From NCBI RefSeq assembly GCF_905475395.1, contig NC_058339.1, forward strand, positions 10,982,001-11,046,000: 64,000 nucleotides of DNA. Reading direction: 5' to 3'. The notes below the pieces were generated by a model. It was not told where the DNA came from. It did not search any database and worked only from the letters and a program-made list of their open reading frames with translations. Positions within the stretch are counted from its first letter, which is position 1, and each line of letters starts with the position of its first letter. A program made the position numbers and the translations under genes. Shown piece after piece: positions 3,897 to 63,689 of the stretch. This DNA comes from Chrysoperla carnea (Eukaryota > Arthropoda > Insecta > Neuroptera > Chrysopidae).

Positions 3897-6800
3897 ATGT
3901 CTATTGATGACTACGAGGCACTAGGTGAACAAATATAAACCGGCTCTTTGAAATTTTTTAATTTTGTTAGATAAATGTATATAAATTGAAAAATGTTAAA
4001 AAGTATGTAAAATCTTTTACTCTATTATAAAAGTATTTTATATTAAACAAAATTATTTTACTCATATTTATGATTAATTAAAATTTCTAGGTTTTCTCCT
4101 ATTCTTCACATTAGTTGTCATCACAATTTCTGTGGAATCAAGTGTAACCGGATACATAAGACCATTAGATATCCAAAGATTTGAAAAAGTCCTAATCGAT
4201 GGCATATCAAGTGGTAATTTAGTCAACATACATTATGGAGTACGAGGTTTATCGTTAATAAAAAAACCAGTTCCTGATAGTTTAATAAATGGTTTGTGTG
4301 ATGTAATTCGAAAAACGTTGTTAGATTCAAAAATCAAAATTGAACAAATATATTATGCATCGTCTGTTCTTGCACAAACTCCAAGATGTAAACATATATT
4401 AAAAGATGAAAAAGATAAGGTACAAGTTTGAATACCAGATTTATAAATTGCAATTATTATAAAAAAATTGTTTTCTAGGTTTTTACTGACGTATTAACCA
4501 ATGAAGCTTCGACCATACCTGAATTATACTATGCCACCGAAAGTTTAAGTAATTTAGGGAGAGCAGTTCCAGGATCTACAAAAATTGCACAAAGTATTCA
4601 GACAAAATTAAAAACAGAAGATACTTTATTAAAGTAAGATTTTTTTATTCTTCAAATACATTTAAACTTGGTTAAGTGATATATTTATTACGGTTAATAT
4701 TTAAAAGTATTTTCAGTAAATTTACATTCTAGCGAATTTTCCGAAAAACTCCGATCCCCAGGTTCCGGGCGAGCAGACTCGGTAGGCCCATTATGGCATT
4801 ACAACAACAATAGGCGCCTCCAGACGTTGTGATCCTGGGTCTTGGTTCCCCATCCAGTGACTCGCATTGTCCTCAAATCATCCAGCACCTGGTCCATCCA
4901 TCTGAGCCTTGGTCTTTCTCTCTTCCTGGTAGCATAGATTTTGGCGTTAAGTATCTTCTTCGGCATCCTGGCATCTTCCATTCTCTGGACGTGCCCAAAC
5001 TAACGGAGTCTTTGGTATTTGATGAACTTAACAATATCTTCACCGTCCAGGATTTCTAATATCTCGCTGTTGTTCCGGATACGCTATTCTGTCTCATTGA
5101 TTTGTACCGCTCCATAGATTCTTCTGATTATTTTCCGTTCGAACCTTCGCATCTTCTCTTAATAAAAAAGTAAAAAATATAAATACTGCTTAAAAATGCT
5201 GTATTTAAGTGTAAACAAATATTTAAAATACATTATAATTTTGAGATATTTAAACGCAGTTTTTTGGCACTCTCTGTTGATGACGTATAAGTATGTGATC
5301 TGTCAATTTTTGACAGTTCAATGTATAATTTGCACTTTAAAAAAAATGAATTTACAACACAGAATTTACACTCGTTATTATTAAGTTTTCTAATAAAAAG
5401 TCGTAGAATTGTATAATTTAATGAAATACCATATAAAATGTAAGTAATTAATATCATACAGTATGTCAACAAATTTGACAAGCCCGTACTTTGATGTCAC
5501 GTCCGTATAAAAATTTAAATTTCCGTTTTAGAAATTTTTAAATGCCCTCACTGAATTTGTTTGATTCCCTCCTTACAATTTCACTTAACCAAGTTTATTC
5601 GTACTTGTTTTTAATAATTTTTCACCAATTTTTAATTGTAAATTATTTTTAGCCTTGGTTATACTTTCCACATTGCTTCACGATTAGGTGCAGCTGGAAA
5701 GTTTGCATTAGATCGTGTGGAGGAAGCATTAGTTCAAGCCGATGAAGTTGATGGAAAGTTTTTACAATTTGAAGGGGGTTTAAGTGTTACTTCAATTGTT
5801 CTAGTTGGTATAAATAAATTACATGCAGCTCAAAAAGTACCTTCAATTATAACCAAAGAACAAGTAGAAAAGTTTTCAAATTATCTTGTTTCGAGACGAA
5901 CTGTTCAGACACCAAAAGGAGTGAGTCTTTTAATTGAAGCTATACGTACATTTACCGACAATCCACAAGTTTCACCCGCAAGTATTGGTTTAGCTGGTTC
6001 TGGACAAGTTACAGCTGCTGTAGCCGTAAGAGTATGTGATATTCTTGGAAATAATTTAGGTAAATATAATTTCGGACAATTTGAATTTGATTGCTTTGAA
6101 TCGAAAATTATTCAAACTTCGAACTAATTCGAAAGTGGATGATTTTAAAGAGTGAGATATATTTATGATTATTTAAATTCCCACCCCCTGACAGAATAGT
6201 GATTTATGACATATGTACAACAGACGTTATTTATACCAAATGGGCGGGTTCTATAGATAATTTAAACTATAAAAAGAGTGGAAAATTTTAACATCGGAAA
6301 AAATTCATTTAATTTAAAAGTAAAAATGCTAGCCACACCAGGATATGAACCGCCTTACCTTGGTTTCATAGGCAAGTACTATACCCACACAGCCAACCGG
6401 CTTATTAATAACTATATAATTAATTAGCTTAATACTTTCCTTTATGATAATTTTGTTCTGAAAGAAAAAATAAGATAGCAATTTTTTTTTAATTCTATAG
6501 TGGTTGGTTCGAAGTATTAAACAACTGTATAGTAAAAGAATTAGTGTAATTTTATTTTTAACAGGATGATGATGAACTCGGAGTTCAAAATTTATTAAAA
6601 GTTAGTGATTGTAGTGGAGATTCGTAAGATTTATACCTCACAATCTAGGGCCAGTCAATGAATCTTTATAAAAGCCTATTCAAGATGGCTATCGAATTAC
6701 TTGTTAAATCGAAAACTCATTAACTCTTAATTTTTTGTATTTCCCTTGAGGTTCGAATTATCGAGGTTCCACTGTAACATTGGCGTAGATGTTTATGATC

Positions 6801-7919
6801 ATTTCAATTGCCAAGACAGTTCCATTTATAGGTTATTGAAATCGCGAATAAAACCGCTTAATTAGTAGTATTAGTTCGAAGAAATTAGCAAGTAGTAAAT
6901 GATTGATTAATAATTGTTAACGTTTAATACTTTTAGCACTGCCAGCAGATTCTGTGATAGCGCAATCAGCAACCAGATTAGGTGATGATGTTGTCGTCCT
7001 AGCTAAACAAAAACTAGTAGCTACATCAAATCCAATCATTTACAATTTGGAATTACCAAGAGATCGTATGGCGGCTGGTTTATATAAAGTGGTGATTTCA
7101 GCTGGTGCACATACTGCTTCTCTTACTGTAACAGCATTGGCTAAAGGAACCGTCTCATCATTGGAAATTGGTGTTGCTGATACCGATCAGCTATCTGCAG
7201 CTCGTTTAACAAAACTTGCGTATCCAAATAAATTATCTACAGCATTAGAAGGAGATTCACAACAAGTTTTACTTATTAAATTTGCATTTGTTGATGTATC
7301 AACAAAAAAACCATTAAAAATTCAACAAGCTTTCTTAAAATTAACATGTTTAACAACCAAGAGAGAAATTCTATTTGTGGCTGAAAGTGAACCTGGTACT
7401 AATTTATACGTAATCACTTTAGACATTGGAAATAAAGCCGCATTACTTGGAGGAGCATCATCTTCGTTCAGTTTAAGTCTTATCTTGGGTGACACCGTAC
7501 TTAGTAATCCAATAATTTGGAATTTAGGAGAATTGAACGTAAAACTCACTGGAGTTTCTACAGAAGTTATATCATCACCACCTAGAGGACCAAAACCAGA
7601 AATTCATCATTTATTCCGCGAACCAGAGCGACGACCACCACAAACTGTATCAATGTTCTTTACAGGACTCGCAATTGCACCAATCCTATTATTGTTTGCT
7701 TTGTGGATCAAATTGGGTATAAATGTATCTCATTTTAGATTATCACTTGGAGCGATTGGTTTCTATTCAGGCTTAGCTGGTATATTTATTCTTTATAGCA
7801 TATTTTGGTTGAATTTAAATATGTTCCAAACTAGTCGATGGTTACTATTATTAGGTGCAATTGCATTCCTCTCTGGTCACAGGTTATTAAAATCCATAGC
7901 GGAGAAACGTAAACATTAG
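3897..7919 (+). CDS. RPN2: Ribophorin II, oligosaccharyltransferase subunit 2
   Basis: RPN2 is an ER-membrane subunit of the oligosaccharyltransferase complex that N-glycosylates nascent secretory proteins. Exons by splice sites and phase: candidate 3897-3924, then 4091-4419, 4479-4633, 5653-6059 and 6937-7919 (TAG). All joins keep frame and give 633 residues, close to the roughly 630 of animal RPN2. Exon 2 starts with a hydrophobic signal segment ([13 protein letters not shown]). The last exon carries [12 protein letters not shown], three hydrophobic TM stretches (about the last 95 residues) and a basic C-terminal tail, all matching RPN2 as remembered. Exons 2-5 are secure. Exon 1 (M-S-I-D-D-Y-E-A-L then split Gly) is tentative: its phase fits, but the acidic N-terminus is unusual for a signal peptide. 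Intron 3 (4634-5652) holds a retrotransposon relic and intron 4 (6060-6936) a SINE. Confidence 0.92.
4735..5165 (-). mobile_element. Decayed non-LTR retrotransposon 3' end, RTE-like
   Basis: On the minus strand the broken frame reads [13 protein letters not shown], then [17 protein letters not shown], then [17 protein letters not shown] and [16 protein letters not shown]. This is the usual C-terminal end of the reverse-transcriptase protein in RTE-type elements of many animals. In-frame stops occur (after the INETE and YQRLR segments), so it is dead. It sits antisense in an RPN2 intron. No intact 3' tail or target duplication was found. Confidence 0.8.
6173..6490 (-). repeat. tRNA-derived SINE, copy 3, in RPN2 intron
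   Basis: A nearly full copy of the unit at 2500-2840, running from CCACCCCCTGACAGAATAGT to the tRNA-like head on the minus strand (about 6410-6320) and the TTTTGTTCTGAAAGAAA block. It lies in the last RPN2 intron, antisense to the gene. Confidence 0.65.
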
Positions 7920-9522: not shown

Positions 9523-12036
9523 ATGTCTCGACATCGTAATATACGTTCAATGAACTATTCTGAAGGTAATTTTAATTTCTTCAGCAATGTCAATGATAAG
9601 TTGACCAAAAATGTGTTGTGCACTTATCTAATCTAATTTTTTTTTTTAGAATGTGATGGATATGATGATGTTTATGGACATTCGGTTGAAGATGATTATT
9701 GTATTTCACCAAGTGATGCAGCTCAATTTATGTATAACAGAGAAGGCAGAAATCGTAGTATGGGCGCATTTTTTAATACAGAAGGGACTATAGCTGAAGG
9801 TGATGAAAATGAAACACCACGACCAAAAGAGAATGCTGAGGGTGATATTGATAAAGCTAAATTGGAATCATGTGTGGAAAGTATTAAAAAAGTGGTTGGT
9901 GATTCTGTATCCCATAAAACTCTGGTTGACACGATAATTAATTATAATTTTAATACGGAAAAAGCTTTGGACAGTCTTCTAACACATATGACTGATAAGA
10001 ATCTTTCAACGAAAACATCTAAAGGTGACTATTCAAATATATTTGTGCTAAGCCCGTACTAATTTTCTACACTGACGGATCTAAGTTATAGAGAAGAAGG
10101 TGGGTTGTGGGATCTTTTCTGAAGATCTTGATCTGCGTCTATCATTTCGGTTGCCGGATCACTGTACTGTGTATCAAGCGGAGGTGATGGCTATTCACGA
10201 GGTTTGTGAATGTCTAAGACTGAACACCCTTAGGTGCAGGGACATTACAATCTTCACCGACAGCCAAGTGGCTTTAAAATCCTTCAGCTCAGTCTATCTA
10301 ACGTCAAAGGTAGCACAGGACTGCCGTACGTCTTTAAATGAGCTGTGCGGAACAAATGAATGTAAACCTGATTTGGGTACCGGGACACAGGGACATTCCA
10401 GGAAATTGTGAAGCCGGCGAGCTTACCAGAAATGGCACAATGCTACCATGGACACAAGCATCAATAAATAACCGGGAGTTCTAATTGCGAACTGCAAGTT
10501 ACTCCTGAAAGAGGATATTCTGAAAAAGGCCAATCTTAGATGGAGGAAAGAACGTACTTGTGGTACTACAAGACAGATATGGTCTGAGTACAATCGCAGG
10601 CGTTCCAAAGTTCTCATATCACTTCCAAGGGCCTCTGTTCGCAAAGTTGTTGCGGCTATCACAGGACACTGGCTGGGTGGCAAGCATGCTGAACGCTTAG
10701 GCCTGGCAGTGTATCACGACTACTGTAGGAGCTGTCACAGTGGTGACGAGGAGGAGACAATGTCTCATCTTCTCTGTCACTGCCCAACTCTTGTCATGGG
10801 GAGATGGACTTACTTGAGCCAGCCTCTCTTTGACGACCTCTCCGACCTAAAGTCAGTCGACGTCAAAGCCCTTTTGCTGTTCTTAAACAGCTCCAAATGG
10901 TTCATGGAGTAGTGGCCGGGAATGGGCCAACCCCTTTACGGTATCACAACGGACCCTATGGTCTAAGTGTGTCCCACCCCAGGACAGCCACCCTAACCTA
11001 ACCTAATCGTACTAATTTGTAATATTGAGCTAATATGTCTCACTAGTTTATTTGTATTCATTAAATTTTTCTTTCTTTCATGTATCCATTTTCTTGATTG
11101 GTGTCCGCATTTAAAAATGAAAATAAATTAAATTCGGGAAGGTAAGACTTAAATATAGTAATTGATAAAAATTCTTCATCTTCATTAACTTCACTAATTA
11201 AACAACATAAAGAACTAAAAATGAAAACACCATCAAAATTTGGTTTAGGCAAAAAAATTAATTTTAAAAAGAAAGTCATTGATGATTCTGATAGTATCGA
11301 TACCGAAATAAATCCATTAAATAATTCAAATACAGCATCTAATATATGCGTTGATAATTTTAAAAGTAATTCGAAACTTCATACGGATTCACATGATTCA
11401 CTATCCGATTTAGTACGAAGTCATCTACAAAAAAATGTAGCTGAATCAAGTAGTTTAATAAATTTACCTACAAAAAACACTCGCAATTTTACACAAAAAT
11501 TATCCAATTTAAGTTTATATTCATCTTCACCGGAATCATCGGGTACAAAATTAAATGAAAAATTAGAATCGTTACAAAAATTAGTCGAACAACATTCATC
11601 GAAACCAAGTAGTTTTCCGCGTGTTACATCCGATCCGATTGACAATGAAAAATGGACTATAGATTTAACACAAGCCTTAAAACAAAGTGATAGTTCCCTA
11701 CCAAATATAGTTGTGGCTAAAGAGGATGTAAAAATTGTTGAACATTTTATACCACAATTTGTTGATTGTGAAACAACACCCACCTTTGATATAAACAAAG
11801 CTATTGAACCATTAAAAGATTGTTATTTAGATGTTAAACAATTATATGATAATGTTGAATTAGATGTTAAACAATGTTCACATTTTGGTAAAATTATTTG
11901 TAAGAGTTATATACGAGCAAGTCCTTATACTCTACCATCGAAAAAAAATTATGATGATAAGGTTCAATGGTTTCAATTTAACGTACCCTCGCCGGATGAT
12001 AAAATCAAAACTGTTTTTCAAAATATTCGAAAATAG
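9523..12036 (+). CDS. SKI7-like short isoform of HBS1 (alternative terminal exon)
   Basis: Exons 9523-9565 and 9650-10024 are shared with HBS1. They join an alternative last exon 11159-12036: acceptor AATATAG|TA, where the split codon G+TA gives Val, ending in TAG. The product is 431 residues, of which about 291 are isoform-specific. The specific part has no GTPase. It is Ser/Asn/Lys-rich and contains PSKFGLGKK, a helix-prone middle section ([14 protein letters not shown]) and, at the very C-terminus, [11 protein letters not shown] (residues 410-420). In vertebrates a short HBS1L splice form with an F.F..PSPDD-type motif acts like yeast Ski7, bridging the cytoplasmic exosome and the SKI complex. 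I infer the same role here. An AATAAA follows 10 bases after the stop. This isoform rests on sequence alone; no transcript was seen. Confidence 0.85.
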
Positions 12037-14769
12037 TTTGTTCTTCAATAAATTGTAAATAATTGATTTTTTATACTTTTAATATTAATGACGTATTATT
12101 GTTATGTAATATAATTATATTTTATTAAAATATTTTTTTAATATCGAGAATTTTATTCAATTAATCAATAATGTAAAAATTTATTTGGAATTCAATATTT
12201 CACTTGAATGGAAAAGGATGTATATCTCTGCGTCACAAAATATGCACAAAGCAAATTAGAAAAGGTGTCATACTATTTCTCTAAAATATGTTTGGTGATA
12301 TACATGTGATATACAGGGCCGTTCTGTAATTGACTGCAGATCGTCATCCTGCAGAATAAGCTCATAACGACGAAGGAAAAAGTTATTTTCCACTATTGGA
12401 TCTGAAGCCTACTTTGCGAGATAATTAACAAAATAAATTAATATATCTTTATCGAATCACAGTTCAATAAAATTTTGAATGAAACCAATAAAACACTACT
12501 TTAAGAGAGGATGTGTTTTATCATAGTGGAAAACGTCTCTAAATGCAAAATTATTACAAAAAAACTCTATTTGGCTACTTATGTTATTATAAAAACTAAC
12601 CCATTAAAACCTACACTGTTTTTGTTTGTAAATTAAGTGTTGTACGCAACCTATCGTGCGATATCACATACTGTGAGCATTAATTTAGCAAAACGGACCA
12701 GTCCGTTTTTATTTACAACGTGAAAATAACGTTCTTTCATTTTGTCTATTAGTGAAACATTTTTTCTATATAATTAATTTTTCTTTTCTAATAATATTTA
12801 CAAAAAGATATTGTCACAGTAGAAGTACCAGTCAGAAGTGTGAAGATTGTACCGCAAACATTAAATGTAACAAAAGGATTTGAACTTCCTCGACCTGATA
12901 AAGATGTTTCCCGGCCAAATGCATTAACACCAAGATCTCAATCGCCAGCATCTGGTACCGCAACACCTTTAGAAGGTCGTGCAACACCAGATATTCAAAA
13001 AACAAAGGACTCCAAAATCGATCCCTTAGCTTTGTATCAAAAAGAAAGGGAAGGTGAAAAAAGTCATTTATATATGATTATAATTGGACATGTCGATGCT
13101 GGAAAATCAACGCTTATGGGTCATTTATTATACGATCTTGGACAAATCAATCAACGCACAATGCATAAGTATGAAACAGAAAGTCGTAAGTTGGGAAAAC
13201 AAAGTTTTTTATACGCTTGGGTATTGGATGAAACTGGTGAAGAACGTGAACGAGGAATTACGATGGATATTGGACGATCGCAATTCGAAACGAAAACAAA
13301 GAAAATAACGTTATTAGATGCTCCTGGGCATAAAGATTTTATTCCTAACATGATATCCGGTGCTGGTCAAGCGGATGTTGCATTGTTAGTTGTCGATGCA
13401 ACAAAGGGAGAATTTGAGACTGGTTTTGATTTAGGTGGACAAACAAGAGAACATGCTCTATTAGTTCGATCTTTGGGAGTTGGTCAATTAGCTGTGGCTA
13501 TTAATAAATTTGATAATGTTGATTGGGACAAAAAGAGATTTGATGAAATTAAAAATAGTTTAGGATCATTTTTACGTCAAGCTGGATTTCGAGATAAAGA
13601 TGTTACCTATGTGCCAGTTAGTGGTTTAACTGGACAAAATTTAGTTGGACCTCCAACCGAAAATGCTCTTTTACAATGGTACAATGGACCTTGTTTACTT
13701 GATGTCATAGGTGAGATACGAATTTTTGATCTAACATTTAGTAATAGTAGTAGTAGTGCGAAGGAAGCCAAAACCTGGCTTATAATGCAGTCGAGGTCTT
13801 TTTTAATTTTCTAAAGACAAGGCCGTTTGCACAATCTTTTCTACTTTCTATCAAGCCTAGATGTTTTTTCTAACCCTGTCATCCTAACGAACCTCTTGTC
13901 TTTAAGAACTCATTTTAGTTTTTTAAGGATACCACTTTATAATTTTAGATTTTACTGATTGTTAGAATAATTTAAAACTAATAAATTTTTACAGACAAAT
14001 TCAGTGTACCTGAACGAGCAGTTTCGAAGCCATTTCGATTTTCTATCCACGATATTTATAAGGTATTATAATCGTCTAAAATTTATTTGTTTCATAGAAG
14101 CCTCAGAAAAATTCACAATAATATTATGTAAACTTAGGGAACTGGTGCTGGATTATGCGTTTCCGGACGAATTGAGACTGGCGTATTAAATGTTGGTGAT
14201 CGAGTATTGTTATGCCCTGTAAAAGAAGGTGCTACTGTACGTAATATTACTCTTGATGAAGTTCCCATGCAGACAGCGTTTGCTGGTGATCAAGTGTCCA
14301 TCACTTTAACTGGAATCGACATACAAAACATTACAATTGGATGTATTCTTTCAACGCCAATTTCACCAGTACCTGTCGTTCAGAAATTCGAAGCTCGTAT
14401 TGTTGTTTTCAATGTTAAAACTCCACTGACACGAGGATATCCGGTAAAAAATTTCAATTTATTCAAACATTTCCAAGTTATTTTAAGTTCTTTTTGTTTT
14501 TGTTAATACAGGTGCTCCTACATCATCAATCTTTAATTGAAGCTGCCAATATTACAAAAATCAAAGCACAATTACACAAAAGTACGGGTGAAGTTATTAA
14601 GAAAAAACCACGTTGTTTGGGAAGCTATTCGAATGCCATTGTTGAGATCGTTGTAAATAAACCCATTTGTATTGAATTGTTTCGTGATGTGAAAGAATTG
14701 GGACGGTTTATGCTACGTGTTGCTGGTACTACAGTAGCAGCTGGACTTGTTACTGAACTACTTGAATAA
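9523..14769 (+). CDS. HBS1: HBS1, ribosome-rescue translational GTPase (long isoform)
   Basis: HBS1 with its partner Pelota/Dom34 recognises stalled ribosomes and delivers the splitting factor in no-go and non-stop mRNA decay. Exons: 9523-9565, 9650-10024, 12808-13710, 13995-14062, 14138-14443, 14512-14769; all joins keep frame, giving 650 residues. Residues 1-139 contain [19 protein letters not shown] and a UBA-like HBS1 N-domain. The GTPase shows GHVDAGKST (233-241), ERERGIT, DAPGHKD (310-316) and NKFD (372-375; usually NKMD). Domains II and III follow, ending [15 protein letters not shown], as in eRF3/EF1A relatives. The start is the ATG giving MSRHRNIR, as in animal HBS1. A Pro/Ser-rich linker separates N-domain and GTPase. 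The alternative SKI7-like exon at 11159 is skipped in this form. Confidence 0.95.
10050..11008 (+). mobile_element. Non-LTR retrotransposon 3' fragment with RNase H
   Basis: The translation, with stops and frame changes, reads FYTDGSK, then a stretch with [13 protein letters not shown] and [13 protein letters not shown] (RNase H core), then [21 protein letters not shown] and a [20 protein letters not shown] zinc-knuckle-like end, ending ...[12 protein letters not shown]. This is the C-terminus of an I/LOA/R1-type retrotransposon ORF2. The copy ends in CACCCTAACCTAACCTAA. It sits in the intron just upstream of the SKI7-like exon of HBS1. Related fragments lie at 43766-44336 (minus) and 58300-58825 (plus). 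Confidence 0.85.
12047..12052 (+). promoter_or_regulatory. Intronic poly(A) signal of the SKI7-like isoform
   Basis: AATAAA begins 11 bases after the stop of the alternative exon. It lies inside what is an intron for the long HBS1 mRNA, so its use would compete with splicing to the GTPase exon at 12808. Confidence 0.65.
12314..12710 (+). mobile_element. Truncated MITE (CAGGGTGTTCTG family) in HBS1 intron
   Basis: The stretch starts CAGGGCCGTTCTGTAATTGA and matches the first half of the full element at 16727-17582 for almost 400 bases. It ends at the shared palindrome AAAACGGACCAGTCCGTTTT. The right half and right terminal repeat are missing. It lies between the SKI7-like exon and the GTPase exon. 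Confidence 0.8.
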
Positions 14770-14881: not shown

Positions 14882-15778
14882 ACAGGTCTGCGATTAAAAA
14901 ACTGCATAGGATTTTTTTTACATTTTCTTATAGATTTTGACCTCCTAAAAACAGGAAAACTATTTAAAACATTCTATCACATAGGTTTTCATAGATATTA
15001 GTAACAACATAAACTAGTCTTAAAGTAGTATTATTGCACAATAAAAATAAATTAGCTTCGCTTACAATGGGGTATTCTGTGCATATGGAAGAAAACTAAC
15101 TATAACAATTTGGCCATTACCCTGGAAAGAATCAAATATCAGGACCATAATTGGATGATTTGTGGGGACTTCAAAATACTCACGATGCTTTTGGGTCAGC
15201 AGGCAGGCTATACTAAATACCCATGCTTCTTATGCTTATGGGATAGTAGAGCCAGAAAACAGCACTGGGCTAAAAGTGATTGGCCACCTCAAGGGCTTTA
15301 AAATCTGGGGAGAAAATGTTATCAATACTACTTTGGAGCCGCCAGAAAAAGTTTTGTTGCCACTTCTCCATATCAAATTGGGGTTGATGAAACAATTTGT
15401 AAAATCATTGCAAAAGGATGGAGACTGTATTAAATATCTATGTACAAAATTCCCGAAGCTGTCAGAAACAAAGTTGAAAGAAGGAGTTTTCACTGGCCCC
15501 GATATAAGAAGGATTTTAACTGACATCTTCTTTGTGGAAAGTATGAATGAGAAGGAAAAAGAAGCTTGGGTATCGTTCAAGGATGTAGTGCGAAAGTTTT
15601 TGGGAAATACTAAGGATCCTGACTACAAAATCATTGTTCAACTAGCAGCATACGTAGCTCAAGGCGGCAAGATAAGCCTGAAGGTCCATTTTTTACACTC
15701 CCACATAGAAAATTTTTCTGAAAACCTGGGAGCTAAATATCTCATGTAGCTGACAAAAAATTTTTTTTGCAGACCTGT
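14882..15778 (+). mobile_element. DNA transposon relic with ACAGGTCTGC ends
   Basis: The left end ACAGGTCTGC and the right end GCAGACCTGT are perfect 10-base inverted repeats enclosing 897 bases, most of them a broken protein frame (15110-15749). It lies just downstream of HBS1. It is much shorter than an autonomous element would be, so it is an internally deleted or defective copy. Confidence 0.75.
15110..15749 (+). pseudogene. Frameshifted transposon-encoded protein fragment, family unnamed
   Basis: Frame one (15110-15301) contains WMICGDFKILTMLLGQQAGY and YPCFLCLWDSRA. Near 15295 the homology continues in the +1 frame (to 15749) with LPLLHIKLGLMKQFVKSL, EKEAWVSFKDVV and LKVHFLHSHIENFSENLGA before a stop. 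I recall this combination (CFLCLWDSR, LPPLHIKLGLMKQF, HFLHSHLDYFPENLGA) as a protein found in many copies in arthropod and other invertebrate genomes and thought to be transposon-derived. I cannot name the superfamily. The frameshift and loss of the C-terminal part make this copy non-functional. Confidence 0.7.
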
Positions 15779-36664: not shown

Positions 36665-39600
36665 TCAGTTAATTCCATTAGACAGCACATTTTCTTGATT
36701 AATTTCTACCGAATTTTGTTGTAACGTTGGTATAACTTGAGATGGTTCATTTTCTACTTGTTCCTGCTGTGTTTGGGTCAGTGGTTGTGGTTGGCTTTGT
36801 TGCGATTGTACAATAGCTTGTGATAATTGTTGATTGGTGGGTATTGTAATTTGTAATTGATTCAAAGAATTTAGAAGTATTTCATGTAGTCCAGCTGGAT
36901 TCACTGAAACAGACTTAGTACAATTATATGTTTTGTAGATGCCAACCAAACGATCAGCTAGTTCGAACATATTCGAACGTAAAGAGATAATTATAAACTG
37001 TGCATTTTTAGTACGATCTTTTATATAATTTCCAACAATTGAGACATTTTTAAAATCCAACGCAGCATCAATTTCATCCATAACGTAAAGCGGTGATGGT
37101 TTATAATAATGTAATGCAAACACTAAAGCCAATGAACTTAATGTTTTTTCACCACCCGATAAATTACAGATATTTTTCCAACTTTTCTTCGGTGGTCGTA
37201 CACTAAATGATATACCATCGTTAAATGGATCTAATGAATCAACCAATTCTAATTCGGCATCACCACCTAACGTAATCATTTGATACATTTCTTTTAATTT
37301 TAAATTAATTATTTGATAGCCAGTTAAAAATTCATTTTCTCGTGTTTTCTTTGCTTTGTCTAACGCGTCACGAAATAATTTACGACGATTTGTTACTTCT
37401 TCTACTTCTCGTACACGTTTACAATATTCAAGTTGAATTTTTTTATACTCTTCAATTATATTTAGATTTGGTTTTTTTGATAATTTATCTTGTTGGAATG
37501 TAATTGTGTATTGTATGTCAGCAACATTACAATTCTCCAATTCTTCATCCGTTAATTTTCTTAATTCTTTCTTTTGTGTTGTTCTTGATGTGTTGTCGAT
37601 TGAATCTGTTGTCCTTATCGATGCACCTAACACATAAAAAAGTTACCTAATTAAAACGAGACAAGCAAAAAGGAAAGAGAGAAAATAATAAATAAAATCT
37701 ACGAAGGGTAGATGAGTCCCTAGCACCTAGACTAAGAAGTCCTCTGTGCCCCGCTTGCGGGGGTTACCGGAATGCTTAAATCGTCACATAAGCATGTGAG
37801 CTATGATGTATGCGTGTGATACCCAGCAGACTAAAAACTTAAGCAGTATTTATATTTTTTACTTTGTTATAACGGTGTAAACAATGAATTAAACATAAAA
37901 AAAATACATGAATATTCCCTATTCTTTTGTGATTCGAGTTATCGAGGTTCTACTGTATATAATATCTGGGAAAATAAGAAAATATCCGAAATAGTATTAT
38001 TTACCTGTAACATTGACTTTTGATGTATTTGTATTAGTATTATTGACTGTTGTATTTGCTTTTGATGAATTTACACTGTGCTCCAATCGTTCAATTTCTA
38101 CTTCATTATCTGGTATAGTATGTAACGTTAATTTCGATAATGCTTTTCGCCAATGTGATAAATTATTGATGAACTCTTTGATTGTTTTCTCAACAGTACT
38201 TAATTCATGTTCTAAATTAATTTTATCTTCTTTACATTTATGTTCGTTCTTTGTCAGTTCATTAATTTCATTTTTAATTTCTGTATCTGATTCGTCCGTT
38301 TTAATTTCATTTAAATCTTCCTCCATCTTTTGAATTTTTTCATTTAGACTTCTTGCATCAGCTTCAATTTCAACCCTTTCTTGTTGTAATTGTAATATTT
38401 TTTCACTATCACTTTGAATACTTTCTTCAATTCTTTCAATCGTATTCTTACATTTTACAGCATTCCTTTCTGCATTTTTAATGCCAACAGTTAATCGTGT
38501 CGATTCTGATTTTAATTTATCAATATTTTGTGAAATTTCTTTTAATCTATTTTGTACTCTTTTTAATCTACCACCATCTTGTTGCGAAATTTCTTCGGAT
38601 AATGCATCAACTTCTTCTTGTAATTTTCCAGCAATTTTATTTTCTTTTTCAAATTGTTTTCTTTTTGCTTCGATCGTTGCTTCTAACTCTTTTACACGAT
38701 TTTTATCACTAACTGTAGTTTGAACAACTTTTTCTTGTTGTTTTATTTGTCTTTCTAAGTTTGGCAAATTTATTTTAACAGCCTAAAACGGAAAAATTAT
38801 TATTATTAACATTTAAATTTTCGCAATTTATTCGTATATTTCTACACGGTCCTGTGAGGAACATAGCCATAGAGCTGTATAGACATAGGAAACGATGAAT
38901 TGTGATTTCTCTGTGGTCAAGTGAATTCTTGACCGCAGTGAGAGAGTTAGAAAGAGCGCAGAAGATTACCGAACGGTTGGCGCGAGTGCTGACGAGTTAA
39001 AATATTTAGATATGTACTTACTTCACATTCAGCTACATATTTCCGTAGATCAGATCTCATTCTTTCAACTTCTCTACTAAGTTGATCGACTTTTCTTTCT
39101 AAATCATACTTAGTATTATCCATATCTCGTAATCTTTCCGATAATTCTCTTACATTCTGTTCATATCGTTCAATTCTTTCCGGTGACTCCGTTGTATTTG
39201 CTGTTGTATCTACTAATATTTTTGAACCCATTCGTCCACTAATTTTCGTTCTACCACCACCGCTCATTGTTCCAACGAGCTCAATCATATCACCGTTTAA
39301 TGTAACAACACGATATCGTTGTTTCCCATATGCTATACGAGTTGCTTGTTCTAAATCATTCGCAACCAAGGTCTCACGAACTCCAAAATAAAATGCAGTC
39401 ATTAAACGCTGATCTTTAAATTGAATTAAATCATAAAGTCTTGGTATATTTTCTGGGCTGTAATAGAAAAATTTTAAAAATCATTGAAATCTCTTTTCAC
39501 AGCCATTTTTTCTCAAAAAAAGGAATCAAAATAAAATTTTTTTTCTGCTGAACTATTAATAGAATTCACTGAGTAAGGGGCTGAAAGTAAAATTTTCATG

Positions 39601-42600: not shown

Positions 42601-45095
42601 CAACTAAGTTTACTTTATGGACTTTTGCCGCACGATCATCATTTAATTCACTTACAACTACACCTAGTTTTTCAATTGGTTCCTGAATGGAAGTCATATT
42701 ATATTGAAATTTAATCGATAACTTAAAATTCAAATTAAACTATATAAAATTGTTCAAGCTAATTGAATTTACACTCGTGTGCAAGAGTCGTCCAAGGGGG
42801 GGGGGACTTTGCAGCTCTATGATATTATTTCCATATATTTTTCTGATCAAAATGAAGAATCGTTCATATTCAATATTTACCTTAAATCTTGACGTGCCAA
42901 TAATATCTTCTAAATATTCTAGCATTCCTGAATCATGTTCAGTTAAGCCTTTTGGTTTCATCATTGCAATTTGTTCAACTTCACCCTATTAACAAATTTA
43001 AAAAATAAAAATAAAACATTGAAAGTAACAGATTAGATCAACTTAAATTTTTCACCGACTAGTCGGAACATTCCTAACATTTAGCAACATAATTGGAAAG
43101 ATAACTTAATTTTTTTTACCACTTCATAAAAAATGAATTTGTTTAGTTAAAATGATTAAAATGGTATTTACTTGTAAAATTAAAAATCGATTATGATCTA
43201 AATCAATTCCAAATTTCTTTAATTTTATAGAAACTTCTTTAAATGGAACACGACGTCCATCAATTTCATATGTTGAAGAATTATCTTTGAAACCGGTACG
43301 GGATACATAAAATTGTGAGTTTGGAACTTCTTCGTAATCTTCGTCCTAAAAATAAAATAAAATTGATAATGATAAAATATAACAGGGATTTCGCAAATGG
43401 ATCTCTAGCACCTACACCTAGATCAAAGGGTCCTTTGTGTCTTTCTTATCTTCGGGTAAGAGATGATAGTTTAAGCAGATGAAGCTATAGGATTCTTTCG
43501 ATGGCAGATGCCACGCAGAAAGCCCACAGCTTTTCCGAGGGAAACTCTCCTAGGATTGATGGATACAAGACTCAAACATTTGTTTCGGATTCAAAAATTC
43601 TGTATAGAACGCTTTACAGTTTAACATGTATGGAGGATTCATTCCTACAAGGAATCATCAAAGATCTCCATGTTATGAAGATGGTAGTTCAATCGATAGT
43701 GTCCTATAAAGAGTTCCATCACCCTTCTTAATTGTGCTCTAGTAAGTTTCAGGCAAGCACAGTTGGATGGTCTTAGGTTAGGTTGGAGTGTCTGTCCTGG
43801 GGTGGGACACACTTAGACCATAGGGTTCGTTGTGAAACCGTTACTCCATGAACCATTTGGAGCTGTTTAAGAACAGCAGGAGGGCTTTGACGTCGACTGA
43901 CTTTAGGTCGATGAAACATTGTCTCCTCCTCGTCATCACTGTGACAGCTCCTGCAGTAGTCGTGATACACTGCCAGGCCTAAGCATTCAGCATTCTTGCC
44001 GCCCATCCAGTGTCCTGTGATAGCCGCAACAACTTTGCGAACAGAGGCCCTTGGAAGAGAACTTCGGAACGCCTGAGATTGTACTCAGACCATATCTGTC
44101 TTGTAGTACCACAAGTACGTTCTTCCCTCCATCTAAGATTGGCCTTTTTCAGAATATCCTTTTTCAGGAGTAACTTGCAGTTCGCAAATGGAACTCCCGG
44201 GTATTTATTGATGCTTGTGTCCGGCAGCATCGTGCCATTTCTGGCAAGCTCGTCGGCTTCACAATTTCCTGGAATTCGTTCCGCCAGCTCATTTAAGGAC
44301 GTACGGCAATCCTGTGCTACCTTTGATATCGGATGATCTTAGTATACTCCCATTTTTTTGTTTTTCAAACAAAAACAGCATTTTTTCCTTTAAGTAATAT
44401 TTTGGTTGTGGATAATCTAAATGGTGATTCAAAACTTGTAGCAAAATAGCAAAAAAACAAGTTTCTAGTACCTTATCAATAATTAGTTTAAAATATACGG
44501 ATACACTACACGATTGAATAGTTTTGTGATTTTCTGAGCTATGTATCAGAGATGATATTTTCTTCGAACGAATTTTACTTCCACGATAACCAAACACAAA
44601 CAACATGGAATCAATTACATTACTTTTTCCACTTCCATTTGGGCCGATAATCGATGTAAAACACTAAAACAGACAATCAATATAAATATAATTAGTCAAA
44701 GATCGAACACTGAATACTCAAGAAATATCAAATCAAAGTTTAATTAGCTAAAATAAGATAAATTAATTAAATAGCCCGCCGTTGTTACTTTCTATATAGC
44801 AAAAAGTCGAACTAAAAATTCTTGTAACTACTTGAATTAATTTAAAAAAAATTACCTTATGAAAAGGTCCAAGTTCTTGAACTCCAGCATAAGATTTGAA
44901 ATTCTTATTTACAATTCGCGTTATAATTAATCGAGGTGCACCTGTATCCAAACTACAAACTGGTGGTGGAGGTGGCGGTATGTAAATATCACCAATTTTA
45001 ATTCCACCTTCTTCAACAATACGTTCTGGTTCTCCGTCGGAATCATCACTGCTTGCACTTAACTGTGCAGTATCACTTTTACGTTTTCCAGGCAT
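36665..45095 (-). CDS. SMC4: SMC4, condensin ATPase subunit
   Basis: SMC4 pairs with SMC2 in condensin to compact mitotic chromosomes. Twelve exons from the ATG at 45095 down to TGA at 36665: 45095-44856, 44663-44472, 43345-43172, 42985-42881, 42682-42354, 42003-41631, 40998-40877, 40813-40573, 40341-40139, 39457-39022, 38782-38005, 37626-36665. All junctions are GT-AG and in phase, giving 1384 residues. Walker A GPNGSGKSN is at 87-95. Then follow EQIAMMKPKG, the first coiled coil, the hinge (exons 8-10, GILGRLGDLGAID and DYIVVDT), the second coiled coil, the signature NLSGGEKTLSS (about 1220) and Walker B PLYVMDEIDAALD (about 1246). The last 60 or so residues are a Gln/Ser/Thr-rich tail beyond the usual end. 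Introns 2, 5 and 6 hold mobile elements. Confidence 0.97.
41065..41560. repeat. Dispersed repeat in SMC4 intron 6
   Basis: The sequence contains blocks (CAATCTGATGTCGGAACATG, its complement CATGTTCTGACATCAGATTT, and TTTCGAAAATCGTTAGCTTT) that recur at about 19745-19975, 24965-25375, 36425-36640 and 59400-59760. Here the two complementary blocks at about 41100 and 41495 make an inverted pair around the interior. No coding frame is seen. Confidence 0.6.
42073..42308 (+). mobile_element. MITE (TTCGTTG...CGAA family) in SMC4 intron 5
   Basis: It starts TTCGTTGGGTGCGTAGTCAT, ends CATGCACGGTGCGAA, and carries GTAGTCATGGTAGG and GTGTATCGTTACCATG near the ends. The ends are imperfect inverted repeats. 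A longer sister copy is at 57082-57469. Confidence 0.7.
43766..44336 (-). mobile_element. Non-LTR retrotransposon 3' fragment, antisense in SMC4 intron 2
   Basis: On the strand shown it repeats the end of the element at 10050-11008: [12 protein letters not shown], a GAP with [13 protein letters not shown] frames, [17 protein letters not shown], and a 3' tail of CCTAACCTAA (read as TTAGGTTAGG at about 43773 on the plus strand). A short internal deletion removes part of the C-terminal coding region after DEEET. SMC4 is also on the minus strand, so the element lies in sense orientation to the gene. Confidence 0.8.
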
Positions 45096-58299: not shown

Positions 58300-58825
58300 C
58301 TTATCTTTGTTAAAAGAAAATCCGCTATGACCAAGACAGATATGATCTGAATATAATCGTAGGTGTTCCGAAGGTCTTATATCGCTTAGCAAAGTTATTG
58401 CGCCTCTATTATAAGTGCCTCTATTAGCAAAGTTATTGCGGCTATTACAGGACACTGGCTGGGCGGCAGACATGCTGAACGCCTGGGCTTGACAGTGTAT
58501 CATGACTATTGCAGGAGCTGTCGCAGTGTTGGCACGACTATTGAGGAGACGATGTCTTATCTTCTCTGTCCCTGCCCAGCACTTGCCATGAGGAGGTGAA
58601 CTTATTTGAGCCAACATCTCTGTGACGACCTCTCATCTCAGACCTAGTCCGTTGACGTCAAAGCACTCCTGCTGTTCTTAAAAAGCTCAAAATGGTTCAT
58701 GGAGTAGTGGTCCGAGATGGGCTAACCCTTTTTCGGTATCACAACGGACCCAATGGTCTAAGTGTGTCCAGGACCGCCACTCCATAACAGCCACTCTAAT
58801 CTAACCTAACCTATCGATATGACCT
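58300..58825 (+). mobile_element. Non-LTR retrotransposon 3' fragment, rearranged
   Basis: This repeats the end of the element at 10050-11008 ([29 protein letters not shown]-like), with a small internal duplication near 58388-58440 and frameshifts. It ends CTCTAATCTAACCTAACCTA, again a CCTAA-type tail. It is dead. Confidence 0.8.
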
Positions 58826-63617: not shown

Positions 63618-63689
63618 ACTCGAATAGCCTAATTGGTAGGGCGCTTGACATGAATCCAAGAAGTCCGGGTTCGAGTCCTGGTTCGAGTG
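63618..63689 (+). tRNA. tRNA-like gene or SINE head, anticodon arm defective
   Basis: The 7-base acceptor stem (ACTCGAA / TTCGAGT) is perfect. The D-arm shows A box TAGCCTAATTGG. The T-arm shows B box GGTTCGAGTCC with a 5-pair stem (one G-T pair). A T7 run follows at about 63693, as for RNA polymerase III termination. The anticodon stem has one mismatch (A-C at its last pair), and the loop CATGAAT lacks the usual T at position 33. The nominal anticodon TGA (Ser) conflicts with the short variable loop. It is therefore more likely a tRNA pseudogene or the head of a tRNA-derived SINE than a working tRNA. Confidence 0.5.

Follow-up and report, generated by a model that had tools for sequence, protein, structure and literature searches.

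We found that the segment 11159-12036 in a 64,000-nucleotide stretch of the Chrysoperla carnea genome (the whole stretch analysed, hereafter the window) is very probably the exon of a SKI7 (HBS1L3) isoform within an HBS1 gene, so that a single HBS1/SKI7 gene would encode two proteins. The gene anatomy and reading frames, on which this assignment draws, were observed directly and include the following features.

9523..9565, plus strand: exon 1, coding part from the ATG; common to both isoforms; matches the HBS1L N-terminus
9650..10024, plus strand: exon 2, HBS1_N domain (Pfam E=4.5e-10), ending in phase 1; common to both isoforms
11159..12036, plus strand: predicted SKI7-type alternative last exon; two bases, 291 codons, and a stop, after a phase-1 splice
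12047..12052, plus strand: AATAAA hexamer read from the sequence, candidate poly(A) signal for the short isoform
12808..13710, plus strand: first HBS1-specific exon, linker and GTPase domain (Pfam GTP_EFTU E=3e-51)
13995..14062, plus strand: HBS1 exon, placed by in-frame joined translation
14138..14443, plus strand: HBS1 exon, EF-Tu domain 2 (Pfam GTP_EFTU_D2 E=9.1e-12)
14512..14769, plus strand: final HBS1 exon, with the stop codon; EF1A-type C-terminal domain (Pfam GTP-eEF1A_C E=1.6e-25)

Exons 1 and 2 joined comprise 418 nt, i.e., 139 codons plus one base, and the donor at 10024 (AAG|GTGACT) is thus in phase 1. As an earlier sequence-only reading had proposed, this donor could be joined to either of two frame-restoring acceptors. 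At 11158/11159 (...ATATAG|TA), G+TA forms Val and opens 291 codons that end with TAG at 12034-12036; at 12807/12808 (...AAAAAG|AT), G+AT forms Asp and the frame continues into the GTPase exons. The open exon with its own stop and AATAAA, described in the same reading, is likewise present (292 codons counting the stop, 291 residues without it), and the AATAAA starts at 12047, 11 nt past the last base of the short-form stop. Free of internal stops, the spliced long and short forms comprise 650 and 431 aa, respectively. At the sequence level, the SKI7-type exon is located between the common N-terminal exons and the GTPase exons, in frame with the common donor.

The identification of the gene as HBS1, made in the sequence-only reading, held up in comparisons with known proteins. 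The long product aligns over residues 1-649 with the HBS1L chain of 5lzw, which we take to be mammalian (E=5.3e-199), compared to E=1.3e-108 for the best EF1A and to weaker matches, 1.1e-99 and worse, for HBS1 chains that are presumably fungal. Pfam domains HBS1_N, GTP_EFTU, GTP_EFTU_D2, and GTP-eEF1A_C are all present across the long product, giving GTPase, domain 2, and domain 3. Judged by this similarity, the gene is a complete HBS1, matched end to end by HBS1L. Residues 1-142 of the short isoform also match the HBS1L chain of 5lzw (E=2.2e-21).

The coding character of the extra exon was assessed against simulated sequences and against other parts of the window. An open run of 296 codons, as observed here, was reached in 0 of 1000 second-order Markov simulations (2783 nt, any of the six frames), the longest simulated run being 179 codons. 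Codon log-odds were derived from coding sequence elsewhere in the window, with the GTPase exons in the training set and both the SKI7-type exon and exon 2 left out. The claimed frame of 11159-12036 scores +0.27 bits/codon, compared to +0.28 for exon 2 and +0.39 for the GTPase exon (a member of the training set) in their true frames. The two remaining forward frames and two of the reverse frames score below zero; one reverse frame scores +0.17, and the same is seen for exon 2 (+0.15) and for the GTPase exon (+0.18). The intron 12060-12780 has negative scores in all six frames. Because the open frame is far beyond chance length and the codon usage is of the coding type, we conclude that 11159-12036 is a coding exon.

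The motifs of SKI7 proteins served as the second line of evidence. In the available text of PMC6143672, metazoan SKI7 is characterized by a SKI7-like motif, A+PShFAahL, in which R and L are not universal, and by a patch 4-like motif, IaPF[D/R]F[K/D][S/T]aSPDDIV+A, whose necessity is put in doubt by human co-immunoprecipitation; the Drosophila SKI7-like motif is called weak in the available part of PMC7924785. According to the excerpted structural work on human SKI7 (PMC11540850), residues 555-572 lie at RRP43-MTR3 and residues 602-616 on CSL4, the helix 451-464 (L454, I458) lies on SKI3, and a predicted helix H1 preceding 451-464 contributes little to binding. We read the human SKI7 letters from positions 53-267 of PDB chain 9g8m_E in an alignment; this stretch corresponds to approximately human residues 417-631, with the numbering set by placing L454 and I458 in SLSELI. 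The following segments of the exon resemble these motifs.

11182..11208, plus strand: SLTSLIKQH, first SKI3-docking-like motif, upstream of the only in-frame ATG (11221)
11398..11424, plus strand: SLSDLVRSH, second SKI3-docking-like motif, found as a pattern match
11494..11532, plus strand: segment like the human SKI7 H1 region, GSLSSLAFHKASP, ungapped score 26
11569..11595, plus strand: SLQKLVEQH, third SKI3-docking-like motif, located after the H1-like segment as SLSELIAET is after human H1
11863..11916, plus strand: weak SKI7-like (RRP43-binding) motif, compared by sequence with human LAARPSAFASTLCLRYPL
11959..12030, plus strand: patch 4-like (CSL4-binding) motif, FxFxxxSPDD

The patch 4-like motif forms the extreme C-terminus of the exon (human counterpart FDFKSASPDDIVK), and the C-terminal end of the exon was compared with human AITPFDFKSASPDDIVKANQKKAFTR. 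No match to FxFxxxSPDD turned up in 20000 shuffles of the exon or among 149 control ORFs from the window (60 codons or longer, 14549 aa in total), and the ungapped score against human is equalled by 180 of 5000 shuffles. Its core at 11968-12009 corresponds to the metazoan patch 4-like motif without being identical to it: W replaces P, and Q, N, V, P, and K differ. The SKI7-like motif of the exon, CSHFGKIIC, appears in the right order; the strict R and L of RxxxFxxxL are absent (QxxxFxxxI). Compared with human AARPSAFASTLCLRY, this stretch shares S, F, C, and Y at matching positions and differs by G for A and I for L, and its score is equalled by 1966 of 5000 shuffles, i.e., it is not significant alone. 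The distance from the F of this motif to the serine of SPDD is 35 residues here and 53 in human.

The SLxxL[IV] pattern without H, which derives from human SLSELI but was picked after viewing both sequences, occurs three times in the exon; shuffles average 0.04 copies, none of 20000 contains three, and the 14549 control residues of the window include a single match. The longer form, SLxxL[IV]xxH, was drawn up after viewing the exon sequence. A BLOSUM62 comparison with the human SKI3-docking helix (H2) gives a different picture: the best exon segment is not an SLxxL[IV] motif (equalled by 2039 of 5000 shuffles), the first two copies are one point lower (2554 of 5000), and the third copy is outside the five best segments. 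For the H1-like segment, the score is equalled by 18 of 5000 shuffles, and a second exon segment also picked by the H1 query is equalled by 195 of 5000. The H1-like segment is followed by SLQKLV, the same order as that of human H1 and H2 (SLSELI). Thus, a SKI3-docking role of the SLxxL[IV] motifs is suggested by the pattern, its repetition, and its place. An AlphaFold2 single-sequence model of the exon alone (mean pLDDT 34.8) has seven helices, three of which (10-18, 80-94, and 129-145) coincide with SLxxL[IV] motifs, and this coincidence is only suggestive at such a pLDDT.

The position of the first motif bears on another explanation, in which 11159-12036 is an independent gene that is nested in the HBS1 intron and starts from ATG 11221. 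Such an in-frame ATG does exist, the acceptor at 11158 is weak, and the 20 codons ahead of the ATG have a low codon score (-0.21, which is the top of the three forward frames, with one reverse frame higher at +0.02), all of which would fit an internal start. However, upstream of the ATG the frame stays open across the acceptor, in the phase required by exon 2, and vertebrates are known to have a SKI7-type tail inside an HBS1 intron. Splicing is favored over an independent start because the first SLxxL[IV] motif, SLTSLIKQH, is upstream of the only in-frame ATG, and we consider a nested gene very unlikely.

Similarity searches with the exon as a whole were uninformative by comparison with the motifs. 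Pfam yielded no family above the cut-off (DUF58, with E=0.021, falls below its own). A phmmer search of the PDB set with the exon alone, run to E=10, failed to recover human SKI7; its three matches had E of 0.45 and worse, and none of them was SKI7. The sequence-only reading had proposed a comparison of the segment with the human short isoform. Over the whole length the resemblance did not emerge, either with phmmer or in gapped alignment of the exon with the human SKI7 stretch, whose score did not stand out from that of shuffles (reached by 725 of 2000 in local and by 423 of 2000 in end-free mode); the C-terminal FxFxxxSPDD motif was recovered. The last 75 residues align modestly better with human SKI7 (local, 87 of 2000; end-free, 25 of 2000 shuffles), in an alignment that leaves the SKI7-like motifs unpaired. 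Pattern searches for relatives of the exon gave 7 matches in viral contigs and 51 in genome contigs, 0 of them confirmed; these collections are not meant for animals, and the result says little. Such weak overall alignment would not be surprising in a protein that binds through short motifs, and the SKI7 identification therefore rests on gene anatomy and motifs.

The point at which the isoforms part is a component of this anatomy. The last whole common residue is 139 here, compared to residues 1-144 common to HBS1L and SKI7 in human, as given in the available part of PMC11540850. In the HBS1L alignment, with the chain numbered from its first aligned Met, the junction is within about four residues of the human split, in a poorly conserved stretch. 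The proposal that the terminal exon is SKI7-like is thus borne out by the patch 4-like motif at its C-terminus, the same end of the protein as in human, and by an isoform junction near the published human split.

Splice sites of the gene were compared with each other. The tract upstream of acceptor 11158 contains 32% pyrimidines; five further acceptors in the gene have 50-77%, with the score for the 13995 exon offset by one base, and the donor at 10024 ranks third among the gene's five. This suggests that HBS1 is the default splice and SKI7 a weaker, possibly regulated choice. Given the gene anatomy, the acceptors at 11159 and 12808 appear to be mutually exclusive. With a donor matrix entered by hand, no donor scoring above 3 was detected within 11159-12069, and the 11159-12036 exon looks terminal for this reason. 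The absence of such a donor also argues against the exon being a cassette that is spliced on to 12808 and yields a SKI7 with a GTPase. Most fungal and plant SKI7 forms do retain the GTPase, in the available text of PMC6143672 and PMC3597508, and the human form ends in the corresponding exon; we regard a cassette as extremely improbable here.

The intron between exon 2 and the SKI7-type exon contains an additional element.

10066..11007, plus strand: retroelement-like insertion with an RNase H-like frame and three CCTAA units at the 3' end, delimited by flanking repeats

This insertion is bordered by exact 11-bp direct repeats, CGTACTAATTT, at 10055-10065 and 11008-11018, which we read as its target-site duplication. 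It is approximately 940 nt long and has 48% GC, compared to 30% for the window. Its frame matches Pfam RNase_H with E=3.2e-4, below the curated cut-off, and has no match in the PDB up to E=1. Fragments of the same family are found at 43773-44326 (minus strand) and 58332-58769 (plus strand), 84-97% identical over pieces. The insertion resembles the 3' portion of a retroelement truncated at its 5' end, presumably of the non-LTR type. The switch intron is 1134 nt long with the insertion and about 180 nt without it (base 10066 may belong to the insertion). The insertion probably postdates the SKI7-type exon.

Its presence between donor and acceptor, together with the weak acceptor at 11158, would be expected if the exon were a relic, i.e., if the short form had been shut off by the insertion or by an earlier loss and the frame had stayed open by chance. 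Conversely, 291 codons are open, and coding usage is maintained in three stretches of the exon from 11221 on (+0.20, +0.39, and +0.22 bits/codon), which makes a relic exceedingly unlikely.

Under the preferred explanation, a functional SKI7 exon, one gene would give two proteins through a choice of the 3' splice site coupled to the choice of the poly(A) site. Joining 10024 to 12808 would produce HBS1, the ribosome-rescue GTPase that partners Pelota; joining 10024 to 11159 would produce a transcript that ends just past 12047 and encodes a SKI7 of 431 residues, with the HBS1 N-terminal domain followed by a probably disordered tail. By analogy with the human SKI7 structures (PMC11540850, available in part), the tail would bind SKI3 of the SKI helicase via short helices and the exosome via the RRP43-binding and CSL4-binding motifs, and may thus couple the SKI helicase to the exosome. 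Both the use of the two splices and these binding activities are predictions, the latter drawn from this analogy.

The proposed gene is most similar to that of vertebrate SKI7 (HBS1L isoform 3, HBS1LV3; human and zebrafish): a single gene, common N-terminal exons, an alternative terminal exon in approximately the same place, a short form without the GTPase, and a putative SLSELI-type helix followed by a weak SKI7-like motif and then by the C-terminal patch 4-like motif. The differences are the length (431 aa here, human constructs to residue 632 in the available part of PMC11540850), the SKI7-like motif without R and with I for L, and three SLxxL[IV] motifs versus one in human approximately 417-631, a region that also has DLSVLI. 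The fungal and plant HBS1/SKI7 genes (Lachancea, Arabidopsis) are also single and alternatively spliced and have a patch 4-like motif (PMC6143672, available in part); in contrast, their SKI7 form usually retains the GTPase domain, whereas the form described here would end before it. Ski7 of S. cerevisiae likewise bridges the Ski complex and the exosome; however, it comes from a paralogous gene of its own that has a GTPase-like domain.

One-gene HBS1/SKI7 by alternative splicing is described for fungi, plants, and vertebrates in the available portions of PMC3597508, PMC6143672, PMC7924785, and PMC11540850. SKI7-like proteins are reported in several invertebrate phyla, from cnidarians to priapulids, with arthropods not listed in the accessible text of PMC6143672, and the excerpt of PMC7924785 reports insect and Drosophila SKI7 orthologues (D. 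melanogaster and relatives). An older view restricted Ski7 to some Saccharomyces species (PMC2613156, in part), SKI7 divergence outside vertebrates is stressed in the accessible part of PMC13232801, and the portion of PMC13271354 available holds nothing further on insects. No title in the literature listings concerned an insect SKI7 exon; insect orthologues are nonetheless in print (PMC7924785, in part). Accordingly, SKI7 by alternative splicing in metazoans is already published, the arrangement here is the vertebrate one, and this locus is a good but ordinary example. The suggestion that the splice switch is deeply conserved is a fair one; it adds little beyond the invertebrate and insect orthologues in the available text of PMC6143672 and PMC7924785.

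The locus would add to the animal-type genes that supply both HBS1 for ribosome rescue and SKI7 for exosome coupling by switching splice and poly(A) sites. As most of the signal resides in short linear motifs, similarity searches would easily overlook exons of this kind, and gene anatomy together with the SPDD motif would allow them to be recognized. None of the available portions of the papers cited above describes the triple SLxxL[IV]xxH arrangement. A more speculative idea, which we consider doubtful, is that the three copies, spread over 140 residues, form a multivalent SKI3 dock and that the insertion may have shifted the HBS1:SKI7 ratio in this lineage. If the triple motif is real, multivalency of the bridge becomes testable: one SKI7 might grip the SKI complex tighter, or might hold two SKI complexes, e.g., on collided ribosomes.

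Several other features were noted in the window. A ribophorin II (RPN2) gene at 5642-7919, on the same strand, is directly upstream of HBS1. Just downstream of HBS1, the interval 15056-15749 contains two open frames (81 and 196 aa) for which Pfam gave no match at E 0.01; we guess that they are part of a mobile-element protein. An SMC-family gene (SMC_N and hinge matches) is located on the minus strand at 36665-39480, and a tRNA-Ser with the TGA anticodon was detected at 63618-63689 by both Rfam and ARAGORN.
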